Positions 5,114 to 20,351 of a stretch of DNA of 64,000 bases are shown here, one piece after another. The DNA comes from Brachybacterium sp. SGAir0954 (lineage in GTDB: Bacteria > Actinomycetota > Actinomycetes > Actinomycetales > Dermabacteraceae): positions 1,302,001 through 1,366,000 of the forward strand of contig NZ_CP027295.1 in NCBI RefSeq assembly GCF_005490785.1. Reading direction: 5' to 3'. The notes below the pieces were generated by a model, which was not told the DNA's origin, did no database searches, and saw only the letters and a program-made list of their open reading frames with translations. Position 1 is the stretch's first letter; each line of letters begins with the position of its first letter. The position numbers and the translations under genes were made by a program.

Positions 5114-6456
5114 TTCGGCCACCCCGCCTCGATCTCGTCGCACACCTGCTGCGAGTCCTTCGAGCCCTTGAGCCACTCGACCATGCCGGTCCAGAAGGAG
5201 CCGCCGCCCACCGCGCCCGGCATGACGTCGGAGCCGTCGTAGCGGAACACCTGCGCGCCGGAGGCGATCTCCGCGACCTGGCGGGTGATCTCGTCCGGGT
5301 ACTGCGAGGCGTCGAAGGTGGTGTGGGGGCTGAGCCAGCCGCCCGCCTGCGCCCACGGCCCGCCGAACTCCGGCGAGCTCAGGAACCTCATGAGCTTCAC
5401 GGAGTCGTCGTTGAGGGTGAACAGCGCCGCAAGGTCACCGCCGCCCAGGATCGGCTGGCCGTCGAAGCCGCCCTCCCAGGTGGGCATCGCGAAGACCCCC
5501 ACCTCGGAGTCGAGGTTCTTCTGCACGTCCTCCGGGAAGAAGCCCGTGACGAAGTTGCCCTGGCGCACGTACATGGCCTTCGGCGGGTCCTCGAACAGCG
5601 GCAGCGGGGCCTCGGAGAAGGGCGTGTTGAGGATCGTGTCGGTGCCGCCGAGCACGTTGCCCTCGCCCTTGAGCAGGTCTCCGAGGAGGTCGAAGACCTG
5701 CACGACCTTCTCGTCGTTGAAGGGCATGCGGTGGTAGATCCAGTCGTCGTAGACGTCCGGGCCGTGGACGCGGAGCATGAGCTCCTCGATCCAGTCGGTG
5801 CCCACCCAGCCGGTGGCCTGGTCCGCGGCCCAGCCGTCGGACCAGGGGGTGATGCCGTCGGCCTTGATCTCGTCCGCGATGCCGTACAGCTCCTGCATGG
5901 TCGCGGGCTCGGCGGAGTACCCGCCCTCCTCGTACGCGGCCTTCGGATACCAGATGAGGGACTTGCAGGCCATGCGCATGGGGGCGCCGTAGACGCGGCC
6001 CTGCAGCCGTGCCGAGTCGAGGAACCCGGGGATGAGGGTGCCGTCGAGCGCGTCGTAGTCGAGGTAGACGTCGATCGGGACCACCTTCCCGCCGCGCGCG
6101 AGGTCGAAGAGCCCGCCCGGCTGCGGGAACAGCGCGACGTCCGGGGCGTCGCCGGAGCCGGCGCGCTGGCGGATGGTGTTCGTGAAGTCCGTGTCCGCCG
6201 TGTACTGCACGGTGACCCCGGACTCCTTCTCGAAGTCCTCGAGGGAGGCGAGGAAGGCCTCCTGCTCCTGGCCGCCGAAGGCGCCGAGCACCGTCACGGT
6301 CCCGGAGCCGGGCACGTCGCCCTCGGTGTACTTCTCCGCCGTGGCGGTCGTGCCGCCGGAGGAGTCCGGGTTCTGGAGGCAGCCCGCGAGCCCTACGGCG
6401 GCGGCCGCGGTCGCGGCCCCCGTCATGGCCGCGCGCCGGCTGAGGCGTCGTTGCAT
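5110..6456 (-). CDS. extracellular solute-binding lipoprotein of a sugar ABC transporter
   Basis: This is the substrate receptor of the importer, about 448 residues. The N-terminus has a lipoprotein signal ending in the lipobox LAGC (Cys 26), preceded by SRRAAM, which resembles a twin-arginine motif. The mature part has the family-1 binding-protein layout starting GTVTVLGAFGGQEQEAFL. It resembles AglE-type alpha-glucoside receptors, so an alpha-glucoside substrate is plausible but unproven. Three consecutive start codons occur (GTG 6462, ATG 6459, ATG 6456). The AAGGAG ends at 6462, giving a 5-nt spacing only for 6456, which I chose. Confidence 0.9.
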   Translation of the reverse strand: MQRRLSRRAAMTGAATAAAAVGLAGCLQNPDSSGGTTATAEKYTEGDVPGSGTVTVLGAFGGQEQEAFLASLEDFEKESGVTVQYTADTDFTNTIRQRAGSGDAPDVALFPQPGGLFDLARGGKVVPIDVYLDYDALDGTLIPGFLDSARLQGRVYGAPMRMACKSLIWYPKAAYEEGGYSAEPATMQELYGIADEIKADGITPWSDGWAADQATGWVGTDWIEELMLRVHGPDVYDDWIYHRMPFNDEKVVQVFDLLGDLLKGEGNVLGGTDTILNTPFSEAPLPLFEDPPKAMYVRQGNFVTGFFPEDVQKNLDSEVGVFAMPTWEGGFDGQPILGGGDLAALFTLNDDSVKLMRFLSSPEFGGPWAQAGGWLSPHTTFDASQYPDEITRQVAEIASGAQVFRYDGSDVMPGAVGGGSFWTGMVEWLKGSKDSQQVCDEIEAGWPK

Positions 6457-16828: not shown

Positions 16829-18018
16829 GGCTCCCGCCTCCCCACGGTGCCGGCCGGAGCAGGAGCCGGAGCCGGGGCGAGGAGGGCGGCGAGGGCCTCC
16901 GCTCCCGGTCCCTCGAGGATCCGCTCGCCCGCGGTGCGCAGCGCGGTGCGGGCGACGAGCACCCCCTGGTGGTCCCTCCCGAGCACGGCGATCTCCTCGA
17001 GACGCCGCACGCCCTCCCGCCTCCCGAGGTGGACGACGACCTCGAGGGCGCTCGCGACCTGGGCGGCGAGAGCATGGCGGTCGAGCCCGCCGAGGGCGCC
17101 GAGCGCCTCGAGACGCGCGGGGACGTCGGCCGCGGTGTTCGCGTGGACGGTGCCGCAGCCGCCCTCGTGCCCGGTGTTGAGGGCCTGCAGCAGCTCCCGG
17201 ATCTCACCGCCGCGGCACTCGCCGAGCACGATACGGTCCGGTCGCATCCGCAGGCTCTGGCGCACGAGGGCCGTGAGATCGACGCCCCCCGCGCCCTCGG
17301 TGTTGGCGTGCCGGGACTGCAGGTGCACCACGTGCGGGTGGGCGATCTCGAGCTCGAGGACGTCCTCGACGACGACGATCCGCTCGTCGGGCAGCGCCGC
17401 CTGCAGCAGAGCCGCGAGCAGGGACGACTTGCCGGTCCCCGTGCCGCCCGTGACGAGGAAGGGCACACGGGCGCGGACGATCGCGAGCAGCACCTCCTGC
17501 ACGGCGGCGGAGAAGGCCCCGTGGGCCGCGAGCGCGTCGAGGTCCCAGCGGCGACGGCCGGGCAGGCGCAGGGAGATGATCGCGCCGCCGGGGGAGAGCG
17601 GCGGCAGGACGGCGTGGAAGCGGATGCCGGAGGGGAGGTGGGCATCGGCCCAGGGCACGGCGTCGTCCAGCCGGTGACCGCCGGCCGTCGCGAGGCGCAC
17701 CGCGAGGTCACGGGCCTCGGTGGCGGTCAGGTGCACCGCCGTCCGCCGCAGCCCCTCCGCGTCGTCGCGCCAGACGGAGCCGTCCTCGTTGACGAGGAGG
17801 TCGGTGACGCCCTCCGCGGCGAGTCCCTGGAGCGGGCCGAGCCCCTCGACGTGGTCGCGCACGGTCTCGGTGAGCTCGAGCATGGTCGCCGCGCCCACGA
17901 CGACGCCGGCCTCCGCGAGCACCCGGGCGATCCGGGGCACGTCCACCGGTCCGGGCGCGTGGACCAGATCCGCGCGGACCCGGCCCAGGAGGTCGGCGCT
18001 CGCGGCCGCGGCGGTCAT
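16825..18018 (-). CDS. tadA: TadA-family secretion ATPase
   Basis: This 397-residue hexameric traffic ATPase powers Flp pilus assembly from the cytoplasmic face. The N-terminal domain contains GLGPLQGL and TDLLVNEDG. The core has Walker A GGTGTGKSS, an Asp box (RIVVVEDVLELEI), Walker B RMRPDRIVLGECRG and the His box GTVHAN. All catalytic motifs are intact. The ATG at 18018 overlaps the ssd stop (ATGA). It corresponds to Rv3659c in the mycobacterial cluster. Confidence 0.92.
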   Translation of the reverse strand: MTAAAASADLLGRVRADLVHAPGPVDVPRIARVLAEAGVVVGAATMLELTETVRDHVEGLGPLQGLAAEGVTDLLVNEDGSVWRDDAEGLRRTAVHLTATEARDLAVRLATAGGHRLDDAVPWADAHLPSGIRFHAVLPPLSPGGAIISLRLPGRRRWDLDALAAHGAFSAAVQEVLLAIVRARVPFLVTGGTGTGKSSLLAALLQAALPDERIVVVEDVLELEIAHPHVVHLQSRHANTEGAGGVDLTALVRQSLRMRPDRIVLGECRGGEIRELLQALNTGHEGGCGTVHANTAADVPARLEALGALGGLDRHALAAQVASALEVVVHLGRREGVRRLEEIAVLGRDHQGVLVARTALRTAGERILEGPGAEALAALLAPAPAPAPAGTVGRREP

Positions 18019-19139
18019 CGCGCACCGCCGTCCCGGAGGTCCTCCAGGAGCTCCTGGCAGGCGCGGTCGGCGCCGCGGCGGCGCACGTCGAGCAGGGGGA
18101 CGGCACCGCGCGGGGAATCGCGGAAGTCTGCCGCGAGGGGCAGGCCGAGGTCGGCGGCGACCTCGCCGGGAGCCAGGGGCCCGCGGCGGCGGACCACGAG
18201 CGCGGCGAGGCCGGGCGGCAGGTCCCACCGGTCCAGGCGCCGGGCGGCGGCGCGGACGGCGTGGTCGCTCGCGGGGACGAGCACCAGCAGCCGGTCCAGC
18301 TGCCGAGCGGCGGCGGGCACGAGGTCCGCGCCGAGGTCCACGACGACGGTCCCGCCCCGGGGTCGCAGCGCGGCGAGGACGCCCGCGAGTGCGGGTGCGC
18401 TCGCGCCGGCGCCGTCGGGCCCGCTCGTGAGCAGCCGGATGCCGTCCACCCGGGGCAGGGACTCGCGCAGCGCCTCACCGTCCTCGACGCGAAGGGCGGC
18501 CGCCTCCCGCCATCGCCCACCTTCCGTGGGCGGCGCCTCGACGAGCAGGTCGAGGCCCCCGCCCAGCGGATCGGCGTCCACCAGCGTCACGTCCCCCTCG
18601 GGCCCGGCGCCGCCGGAGCTCCGGGAGCGGCCGGCGGCCCCGGCGAGGCGGGCGGCGAGGCTCGAGGTGCCGGCGCCGCCGCAGCCCCCGGCGACGCCCA
18701 CGACGAGCGCGGCGTCGTCGGGCCTGCTGAGGGCGGCGAGCTCGGCGAGGAGACGATCGGACCGGGCGGGGAGGGGGAGGACGGCGCGGGCCCCGGCGGC
18801 GAGCGCGGCCTCCCACACCGCGGAGGGCACGGCGGACTCGTCGACGGCGTCGACGACGACCAGCAGCGGGAGCGGACGATCGGCGCGCGGAGGCCCGGCG
18901 AGCAGCGTGGCGGGGTCGAGGACCTCGCAGGCGGCGGCCGCGGAGTCGTCCTCGAGGAGCGGGGAGCCGACGGCGGTCGCATGGTCCCGCACGAGGTCGC
19001 GGAGGTGGGGGTCCGCGCCGCGCCAGCGGGTCCGGGCGCCGCCGGTGCCGGGGCGGGGGAAGCGCGCGGCGCGGCGCGGGTCGACGACGCCGGGGCCGTG
19101 GCCGGTGCCGGCGGTGAGGAGAGCGGATTCGCTGGTCAT
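18015..19139 (-). CDS. Ssd/CpaE-like septum-site or pilus-positioning ATPase homologue
   Basis: This 374-residue MinD/CpaE-type P-loop protein has a divergent N-terminal receiver-like region. Its deviant Walker region AGGCGGAGTSS lacks both Lys residues of a true MinD motif. VTLVDADPLGG corresponds to the Walker A' Asp strand. Family members (Rv3660c, annotated Ssd) are first genes of tad clusters and are linked to septum placement or pilus localisation. The ATG at 19139 has no clear Shine-Dalgarno sequence. A GCGGCG/CGCCGC hairpin lies just upstream at 19151-19165. Confidence 0.8.
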   Translation of the reverse strand: MTSESALLTAGTGHGPGVVDPRRAARFPRPGTGGARTRWRGADPHLRDLVRDHATAVGSPLLEDDSAAAACEVLDPATLLAGPPRADRPLPLLVVVDAVDESAVPSAVWEAALAAGARAVLPLPARSDRLLAELAALSRPDDAALVVGVAGGCGGAGTSSLAARLAGAAGRSRSSGGAGPEGDVTLVDADPLGGGLDLLVEAPPTEGGRWREAAALRVEDGEALRESLPRVDGIRLLTSGPDGAGASAPALAGVLAALRPRGGTVVVDLGADLVPAAARQLDRLLVLVPASDHAVRAAARRLDRWDLPPGLAALVVRRRGPLAPGEVAADLGLPLAADFRDSPRGAVPLLDVRRRGADRACQELLEDLRDGGAR

Positions 19140-19269
19140 GGCGACATCGTGGGCGGCGGAGCGCCGCGATGGGGCCCGGTGGGCGTCGCTGTGGACGGCG
19201 GCGCGATGGGGAGGAACCGTGCCGCCGCGCCTCCCCGGCGGGCCCCTCGTCCCCCGTCCACGCGAGTGC

Positions 19270-19298
19270 TTGCGCCCCCGGCGGGCCGGGCGTAGTGT
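19270..19298 (+). promoter_or_regulatory. sigma-A-type promoter firing away from ssd
   Basis: TTGCGC (19270-19275), a 17-bp spacer, and TAGTGT (19293-19298) form a good vegetative promoter on the plus strand, with transcription expected to start near 19305. No open reading frame with coding character follows before the converging xth gene, so it probably makes a non-coding RNA. Confidence 0.6.
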
Positions 19299-19304
19299 GA
19301 CGTG

Positions 19305-19520
19305 GACAACGACGAATATCGGCACCGGAACCCACGTGCGACTGGTCCCCGCAAGCGGACCGGCTGTGAGGCGTCGACAGCGCCACCGCAGCCAGACGGT
19401 TTTCACGCCTGATCCCGGTGCCGGAACGTCGAGGAGCGGCGGCCGCACAGCGGACCGCCGCTCCGTCCTGTCAGGCCCCGGTCACGCCCCGTGGCGCTGA
19501 CACCCCGCGACCTCGATATC
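19305..19520 (+). ncRNA. candidate structured RNA, Ms1-like by position
   Basis: The transcript predicted from the 19270-19298 promoter would be highly structured. CGGCACCGG (19320-19328) pairs perfectly with CCGGTGCCG (19415-19423), enclosing about 86 nt. A second hairpin has 10-bp arms 19433-19442 and 19455-19464. Smaller stems include GGTCC/GGACC around 19344-19361 and CCTCG/CGAGG near 19511-19526. In mycobacteria the interval between Rv3660c (ssd) and Rv3661 encodes Ms1 (MTS2823), an RNA that binds core RNA polymerase, divergent from ssd as here. Homology is inferred from position, strand and structure only. The 3' end is uncertain and may enter the xth terminus. Confidence 0.45.
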
Positions 19521-19535
19521 CCGAGGACGCCCCGC

Positions 19536-20351
19536 TCAGAGGTCGAGGTCGACGACCACCGGCGCGTGGTCGGAGGCCCCCTTGCCCTTGCGCTCCTCAC
19601 GGTCGATGAAGGAGCCCGTCACGGCCTCCTGCGCCGCCGGCGAGGCGAGCACGAAGTCGATCCGCATGCCCTCCTTCTTGGGGAAGCGCAGCGCCTGGTA
19701 GTCCCAGTAGGTGTAGGTGCCCGGGCCCGGGTGCTCGGGACGCACCACGTCGGCATAGCCCGCGTCGACGACCGCGCGGAAGGCGGCCCGCTCGGGCTCG
19801 GTGACATGGGTCTTCCCCTCGAAGAACGCCATGTCCCAGACGTCGTCGTCCTGCGGGGCCACGTTGAAGTCGCCCACGAGCACGGTGCGGGAGCGCGGAT
19901 CCGCGGCGAGCTCGCGCGCACCCTCGGCGCGCAGGGCGTCGAGCCAGCGCAGCTTGTACGGGTAGTGCGGGTGGTCGAGCTCGCGGCCGTTGGGGACGTA
20001 CAGCGACCAGATCCGCAGACCGCCGCCCTCCGAGCCGGCGCCCACGGTCGCGCCGAGCGCCCGGGCCTCGACCACGCCCGTCTCGTCCTCCGGCCAGGTC
20101 GGCACGTCGGGCAGCTGCAGGGCGACGTCCGTGAGCCCCACGCGGGAGATGACGGCGACGCCGTTCCACTGGTTTAGCCCGTGCGCCGCGACCTCGTAGC
20201 CGGCGGCCTCGAGCGGGGCGAGGTCGAGCTGGGCGGGCTTCGCCTTGATCTCCTGCAGGGCGAGCACGTCCACCTGATGGCGGCCCAGGAAGGCCACCAC
20301 CCGATCCATCCGGGCTCGCAGGGAGTTGATGTTCCAGGTCGCGATGCGCAT
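19536..20351 (-). CDS. xth: exodeoxyribonuclease III
   Basis: This 271-residue endonuclease/exonuclease/phosphatase-fold enzyme cleaves DNA at abasic sites in base-excision repair. It begins MRIATWNINSLRAR and has the metal ligand Glu in LQEIKA, the catalytic GDFNVAPQDDDVW, and the terminal SDHAPVV with the catalytic Asp-His pair. The length is normal for the family. The start is supported by a TAGGAT hexamer 6 bp upstream, indicating leaderless transcription. It converges on the candidate RNA gene. Confidence 0.93.
   Translation of the reverse strand: MRIATWNINSLRARMDRVVAFLGRHQVDVLALQEIKAKPAQLDLAPLEAAGYEVAAHGLNQWNGVAVISRVGLTDVALQLPDVPTWPEDETGVVEARALGATVGAGSEGGGLRIWSLYVPNGRELDHPHYPYKLRWLDALRAEGARELAADPRSRTVLVGDFNVAPQDDDVWDMAFFEGKTHVTEPERAAFRAVVDAGYADVVRPEHPGPGTYTYWDYQALRFPKKEGMRIDFVLASPAAQEAVTGSFIDREERKGKGASDHAPVVVDLDL

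Follow-up and report, generated by a model that had tools for sequence, protein, structure and literature searches.

Two bacterial RNAs, Ms1 and scr3559, bind RNA polymerase (PMC4191392, PMC11077062, PMC9130861), and for scr3559 the binding to core polymerase is described as experimental in PMC9130861 and PMC11077062. According to PMC4191392, conservation in Ms1 is highest in an internal bubble and its flanking stems, and the bubble is important for binding to the core enzyme. Another RNA, CoRP of Corynebacterium glutamicum, is presented in PMC11077062 as a completely new type. The published Ms1 catalogue was built from the synteny of annotated genes since a search by sequence could not connect mycobacteria with Streptomyces, and it records Ms1 gaps that have shrunk in other genera (PMC9130861). 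Here, we describe a 64,000-nt stretch of DNA from Brachybacterium sp. SGAir0954 (hereafter the window), in which a first-pass annotation made from the sequence had proposed a candidate Ms1-like RNA.

The gene-free gap between Ssd and exodeoxyribonuclease III measures 396 bp when read from the window sequence, and the coordinates of ssd and xth confirm that annotated length (Table 1). We conclude, at a probability of roughly 0.9, that this gap holds an independent, promoter-driven noncoding RNA gene that is a homologue of Ms1, whose transcription, ends, growth-phase control and binding to core polymerase we infer. Structured RNA found between genes, next to an operon, might instead be a cis-acting leader, either a riboswitch or an attenuator, of a neighboring gene. 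However, the RNA is on the plus strand and its two neighbors, ssd and xth, are encoded by the minus strand, such that it diverges from one and converges on the other; its own promoter elements are conserved, and a 3' hairpin precedes the next gene. Because the RNA strand is opposite to that of both neighbors, we reject a cis-acting leader and give it next to no weight. The HAD hydrolase is not present at the window locus, where the RNA directly adjoins ssd. Matches to the HAD-IB family occur at two places only in the window's own genome, both away from the RNA locus, and the HAD gene is therefore missing from it. These matches are located at G000:C1:1188459-1189052 and 2437804-2438184, the better one within an 813-aa open frame.

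Table 1. Coordinates of the predicted RNA, its parts and its neighbors in the window, with the basis for each assignment.
Feature	Position	Strand	Basis
ssd (CpaE-like septum site-determining protein)	18015..19139	-	TIGR03815 138.7 bits, E 2.4e-40, below curated cut-off 154.45
-35 element TTGCGC	19270..19275	+	TTG in 30/30 aligned relatives, 17-18 nt from -10
-10 element TAGTGT	19293..19298	+	TANNGT in 30/30 aligned relatives
Predicted Ms1-type RNA, ~166 nt	19305..19470	+	31/38 genus genomes, covariation, Ms1 homology
Outer closing stem	19310..19314 with 19427..19431	+	MFE fold; related consensus helix 1 has 97.3% of cells paired
Long-range stem beside bubble	19322..19328 with 19415..19421	+	Consensus helix 2; both-side changes in other families and class-wide
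Internal bubble, 5' strand AACCCA, start of motif ACCCACG	19329..19334	+	Motif invariant in 34-sequence alignment
Inner stem CGTG	19335..19338 with 19404..19407	+	Helix 100% paired
First apical hairpin (GGTCC...GGACC)	19344..19361	+	100% of cells paired
Second apical hairpin	19362..19393	+	97.2% of cells paired; 5 pairs with both-side changes
Internal bubble, 3' strand CCTGATC, within motif CGC-Y-TG-D-T	19408..19414	+	34-sequence alignment; printed Ms1 and Streptomyces alignments
3' hairpin	19433..19464	+	14 consensus pairs, 7 with both-side changes; uncalled by generic terminator scan
xth, exodeoxyribonuclease III, convergent flank	19536..20351	-	TIGR00633 236.7 bits, above its cut-off

The plus-strand promoter that the first-pass annotation read as TTGCGC-17-TAGTGT stands where it had been placed, and its elements are kept in all 30 aligned relatives, with a 17-nt spacer in 29 of these sequences, the window included, and an 18-nt spacer in one. 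A generic sigma-70/terminator scan of 18900-19700 called neither a promoter nor a terminator, and the promoter claim therefore rests on conservation. Taking the 5' end from the position of the -10 element (6-7 nt after it) and the 3' end from the end of the hairpin plus a tail gives a predicted RNA of ~166 nt, and not the 200-300 nt that had been anticipated. The hairpin at 19433-19464 is likely a terminator with a weak T-rich tail. The 396-nt gap exceeds the 300-nt minimum used in the search for the Ms1 class, and the predicted RNA is shorter than both of the RNAs reported to have been sized experimentally (~230-300 nt). A small coding gene was rejected, as no open reading frame is conserved: the longest closed frame starting at ATG measures 0 aa in 20 of the 30 rows and does not exceed 38 aa in any row. 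A two-part element, GTGGAC-N10-TGGGGAGGAA, is located at window 19191-19216, in the stretch that separates ssd from the RNA promoter, and could serve ssd, on the minus strand, or the RNA; the full script pattern of GTGGAC-N10-TGGGGAGGAA is found at a similar place in 14 of 30 relatives. Overlapping this element is a CcsR1-like hairpin on the minus strand (window 19196-19232; 21.4 bits, E 0.0071, against a gathering score of 65.3) that is probably there by chance.

The plus strand from 19305 to 19500 folds at -102.7 kcal/mol, compared with -83.6 +/- 4.9 in 200 shuffles (z -3.9), none of which was as good. Both of the stems pointed out in the first-pass annotation are exact reverse complements, CGGCACCGG at 19320-19328 with 19415-19423 and GGAGCGGCGG at 19433-19442 with 19455-19464, but their extents needed correction: the first two pairs of the 9-bp long-range stem fall outside the consensus of the relatives, and the 10-bp 3' hairpin reaches further inward, to 14 consensus pairs. 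In the relatives' alignment the long-range stem occupies seven columns (19322-19328 with 19415-19421), six of which are paired. Covariation in the stems, on which the annotation had made its proposal depend, is evident among the relatives. Across the 30-row genus alignment 97.7% of cells are paired, and both partners have changed in 17 of 46 pairs, compared with 3.8 in shuffled alignments (0 of 500 reaching the observed value), a control that leaves the kinship of the rows in place. The most telling single pair, in the inner stem, is G-C in 15 and A-U in 15 of the 30 rows. Sliding the pairing partner by 1-3 columns in this alignment reduces the paired cells to 23-52%.

The same pairing extends beyond the genus. 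For the other families alone, we counted 57 double-change cells against 22.4 after shuffling (0 of 500), with 78% of cells paired and one helix at only 57.5%. The class-wide alignment gave 300 double changes against 125 and a covariation score of 0.348 against 0.122 in shuffled data (0 of 500), figures from an alignment that was fitted to the structure of the model and hence leans towards that structure. At the equivalent of the long-range helix, both-side changes are seen at 8 of 9 pairs in the other families and, likewise, at 8 of 9 class-wide. Compared with the other families, the window's family has the 3' arm of this stem shifted by one base, and because of this offset no model was built from the trial alignments A3 and A4.

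A search with the Rfam Ms1 covariance model, suggested in the first-pass annotation as a check, returned nothing: RF02566 has no match in the window at its gathering cut-off (162 bits), nor in 19100-19620 up to E 10. Membership in RF02566 as drawn therefore fails, and the Brachybacterium RNA is outside that family as Rfam draws it. The only matches in the gap up to E 10 were to RF01297 and RF02791, and both were rejected as far below their gathering scores. The Rfam scan of the window at gathering threshold also found no 6C RNA (RF01066).

In order to follow the RNA outside the genus we relied on our own models. In the order, model R1 gave matches in 52 of 396 genomes, of which 27 belong to families other than the window's. 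Nineteen of those 27 outside loci were fetched, of which 17 carry the sequence core around the bubble; the other two (L100 and L101) are GC hairpins without the core that match the terminator part of R1, and were rejected. Antisense terminator matches of R1 were likewise rejected, and alignment A2, which holds antisense hairpin rows, was not used. Model R2 was built from alignment A5, consisting of 16 of the 17 outside core sequences and none from the window's family; L091, a partial match, was left out. R2 finds the window RNA as its sole match in 64 kb (19311-19430, plus strand, 51.7 bits, E 9.5e-12). Throughout the class, R2, which is free of the terminator, matched 86 of 394 genomes with one match each. 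Model R3 has 66 training rows, the window's family among them, such that only R2 is free of that family; it matched 166 of 394 genomes in the class at E <= 0.05, representing 69 of 138 genera, and among the matches listed three genomes have two.

These results bear on whether the gap contains an RNA gene at all, rather than a DNA element or an artefact produced by GC-rich hairpins. The genome is GC rich, the terminator part of R1 does pick up GC hairpins by chance (L100, L101 and the antisense rows), and the generic scan came back without promoter or terminator. Nevertheless, helices that lie far apart show both-side pair changes, promoter spacing is kept in 30 of 30 sequences, and the terminator-free R2 gives a single match per matched genome, and we regard an artefact as very improbable.

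A pattern scan of named genomes yielded 79 stretches, 74 of which were recovered by R2; those unfound by R2 (L152, L164 (Serinicoccus), L195, L210 and L217) are treated as chance. Brachybacterium, Dermabacter and Helcobacillus are represented among these stretches, and the same RNA is seen in Cellulomonas, Oerskovia, Actinotalea, Sanguibacter, Jonesia, Timonella, Ruania, Occultella, Pseudactinotalea, Kineosporia and Knoellia. Table 4 of PMC9130861 gives as Ms1 carriers Cellulomonas, Actinotalea, Oerskovia, Sanguibacter, Ruania, Occultella, Kineosporia and Knoellia. The family Dermabacteraceae, here Brachybacterium, Dermabacter and Helcobacillus, is absent from that table. Among the literature matches listed, none brings Brachybacterium together with an Ms1 RNA, the supplementary species table of PMC9130861 lying outside the scope of that search. 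The host does lie well outside the mycobacteria, as the first-pass annotation remarked, but such a host is not new, as PMC9130861 reports Ms1 candidates in 824 species of 14 orders. We also observed a Cellulomonas-like Ms1 RNA (104.1 bits) on a contig titled Proteobacteria from a MAG bin (L190), which is probably a mis-binned contig.

The connection between the window RNA and mycobacterial Ms1 is a stepwise one drawn through sequence models, and the scores at its final step are modest. In Streptomyces olivaceoviridis, the HAD gene was confirmed as HAD-IB (208.7 bits). The best R2 match in 11 kb around this gene is just downstream of it (5923-6052; 18.4 bits, E 1.1e-3), and R3, whose 66 training rows do not include this locus, scores 33.8 bits (E 2.6e-8) there against 12.4 for the next best. 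The R3 match carries GGGCACCCACGC ... ACGCUUGGUAACCC. Its site downstream of HAD-IB corresponds to the published position of scr3559 next to SCO3558, although the species differs from S. coelicolor.

For the final step, we took nine HAD loci of one family (f22), judged mycobacterial from the Rfam label, eight of which Rfam labels as Ms1 (RF02566, E 5e-58 to 3e-83). When these nine HAD loci were searched with filters off, the best R3 match fell inside the Ms1 span and on the same strand in all eight labeled loci, at 25.5, 25.1, 23.2, 23.1, 22.1, 21.7, 20.9 and 19.5 bits (E 2.5e-5 to 1.2e-3). The match in L281 is partial, and the unlabeled locus, L288, scores 15.9 bits. The genome-wide search of the class, with stricter filters, had R3 report only one f22 genome (G672, E 0.024), and the mycobacterial link therefore depends on the restricted search. 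Four printed R3/Ms1 alignments share the letters GGCACCCACGCG on one side and CACGCUUGGUAACC on the other, and can be compared with the alignment that RF02566 itself gives for L289; at the same places the window has GGAACCCACGUGCG and CACGCCUGAUCCC. ACCCACG is also present in the printed Ms1 and Streptomyces alignments, and the 3' strand of the bubble reads UGAU in the window as opposed to UGGU in both of these. A shape that marks the Ms1 class, a long hairpin with a conserved internal bubble, is thus found in the window RNA, in that covarying stems flank the bubble and R3 falls inside the Ms1 span at all eight labeled loci examined. Together with the top match downstream of the S. olivaceoviridis HAD gene, this supports the Ms1-like identity put forward in the first-pass annotation.

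A long hairpin with an internal bubble is a shape also shared with 6S RNA, and the window RNA could conceivably be a genuine 6S RNA, one that blocks promoters by binding to the holoenzyme with its sigma factor, in which case the likeness to Ms1 would stem from shared mimicry of an open promoter. A length of ~166 nt is closer to 6S than to mycobacterial Ms1, and PMC11077062 reports scr3559 weakly on HrdB in stationary phase (~45-fold, compared with ~1250-fold on polymerase). However, no 6S RNA match was obtained among all 4227 Rfam families, either in the window at gathering thresholds or in 19100-19620 up to E 10, and the sequence core, the bubble and the gene neighborhood are those of Ms1. 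We therefore consider a 6S RNA unlikely and retain the assignment as an Ms1 homologue.

Regarding gene neighborhood, PMC9130861 looks for Ms1-class RNAs in intergenic DNA next to a HAD-IB and/or CpaE/Ssd gene, and in the window it is ssd that adjoins the RNA. In other families the same RNA has a HAD gene nearby. We examined 49 class loci from 48 of the 86 R2-matched genomes (G412 is represented twice, by L108 and L147), and the HAD-IB hydrolase and/or ssd is within the fetched stretch in 44. The five loci with neither in the stretch are L103, L128, L132, L133 and L151; the genomes of L132 and L133 (G578 and G616) have a HAD match a few kb further off, and L151 is without the core and was rejected. 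At L098, ssd (minus), HAD-IB (plus) and the RNA (plus) follow in a row, which is the published Ms1 arrangement. The first-pass annotation had likened the locus to mycobacteria in which Ms1 occupies the gap upstream of ssd. The window RNA does adjoin ssd, but at the mycobacterial-type loci (L286 is one example) the RNA is found on the far side of the HAD hydrolase and not directly upstream of ssd. A 6C RNA (RF01066) was seen near the HAD gene at L137 (1296-1371), L239 (4767-4842), L240 (6081-6154) and L281-L289; in the loci checked (L137, L239, L240 and L286), it is on the side of HAD away from the Ms1-type RNA.

R3 also reached other classes of the phylum. In a sample of 286 genomes, 23 matched at E <= 0.01, 11 of them in other classes, and ten of these 11 were fetched (L300-L309; from G893, G942, G932, G802, G1010, G774, G813, G811, G903 and G853). 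A HAD match is located just upstream on the same strand in six of the ten, all from families f66 and f68, and the HAD neighbors that were tested, at L303 and L307, are HAD-IB. R3 contains no training sequence from other classes, and the repeated HAD neighbor is therefore independent support. The four f101 loci among the ten have no such HAD match; in each of them, inspection by eye shows ACCCACG ... GC-N-UGGUC enclosed by a closing stem that is long and almost perfect. None of the ten loci is labeled Ms1 by Rfam at gathering thresholds. Selenocysteine tRNA genes are located near the Ms1-type RNA at L306 (2301-2389) and L307 (831-921), in another class, the one at L306 being ~30 nt downstream of the RNA on the same strand.

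Conservation of the intergenic region in related species is a further mark of the Ms1 class, and is seen here in 31 of 38 Brachybacterium genomes, in which R1 finds the RNA at the locus, and in the 74 of 79 named pattern stretches. DNA matches occur in 32 of the 38; two of these, in G022 and G034, are short and away from the xth locus, and were rejected. In six genomes without the RNA (G005, G007, G011, G013, G022 and G034) ssd and xth are still side by side, separated by 112, 146, 90, 90, 125 and 90 nt, respectively, as measured to a start codon in the position that the ATG has in the window. R1 gave no convincing match on these six (loci L290-L295), the best being 16.9 bits and away from the gap. 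One genome, G032, is incomplete and without xth, and cannot count as either carrier or non-carrier. In an xth tree that leaves out two fragment rows (L025 and L026), four of the six non-carriers fall into one clade (support 99/99). Mapping the presence of the RNA onto the best tree calls for three state changes, of which the starred branches force only one, the bootstrap not being settled.

Taken together, it is likely that Ms1 is one ancient family with a definable core (ACCCACG ... CGC-N-UG-N-U round the bubble) and not a patchwork of RNAs that are unrelated in sequence and known by synteny. The family would predate the class Actinomycetes and occur in other classes, in several of which the same HAD hydrolase is immediately upstream. 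Brachybacterium would have a minimal form of ~166 nt with no HAD beside it, gone by one or more losses in six of the sampled genus members. In the structure that we propose, the RNA would be a long hairpin in which a closing stem leads to the internal bubble (AACCCA opposite CCTGATC) and then to a short inner stem with two apical hairpins, and the separate 3' hairpin probably ends transcription. By analogy with Ms1 and scr3559, the bubble, which resembles an open promoter, may be the contact site for sigma-free core polymerase, and the RNA may accumulate in stationary phase, hold a stock of polymerase and so regulate its level.

Through sequence and structure, the core and the models connect the window's family with RF02566 Ms1, and direct searches for Ms1 become possible, including where synteny has been lost and in other classes. 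If the minimal form works, it narrows the parts needed for polymerase binding, and the 5' hairpin and the long apical arm that mycobacterial Ms1 carries would be dispensable. Sister Brachybacterium that are without the RNA and keep its neighbors are natural deletions for probing the role of Ms1. Shrunken Ms1 gaps are reported from other genera in PMC9130861, whereas here they are found within a single genus.

Among the systems already described, CoRP RNA of Corynebacterium glutamicum is similar as an abundant polymerase-binding RNA from a related order (PMC11077062), a likeness by description only. 6S RNA has in common the open-promoter-like hairpin with its internal bubble, and differs in that its model gives no match and its partner is the holoenzyme. 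With the published Ms1 candidates of Micrococcales (Cellulomonas, Oerskovia, Sanguibacter, Ruania and others; PMC9130861, Table 4), our model matches in named members agree at the level of genus. The S. coelicolor homologue, scr3559, is ~230 nt in length compared with ~166 nt in the window. Relative to Ms1 of Mycobacterium smegmatis, the window RNA goes undetected by RF02566, is ~166 nt against a model of 304 positions, has no HAD at its locus and, by prediction, is without the 5' hairpin and the long apical arm. Nevertheless, it shares with Ms1 of M. smegmatis (MTS2823; RF02566) the core ACCCACG ... CGC-UG-U round the bubble, the closing stem, the 3' hairpin and a location near ssd.
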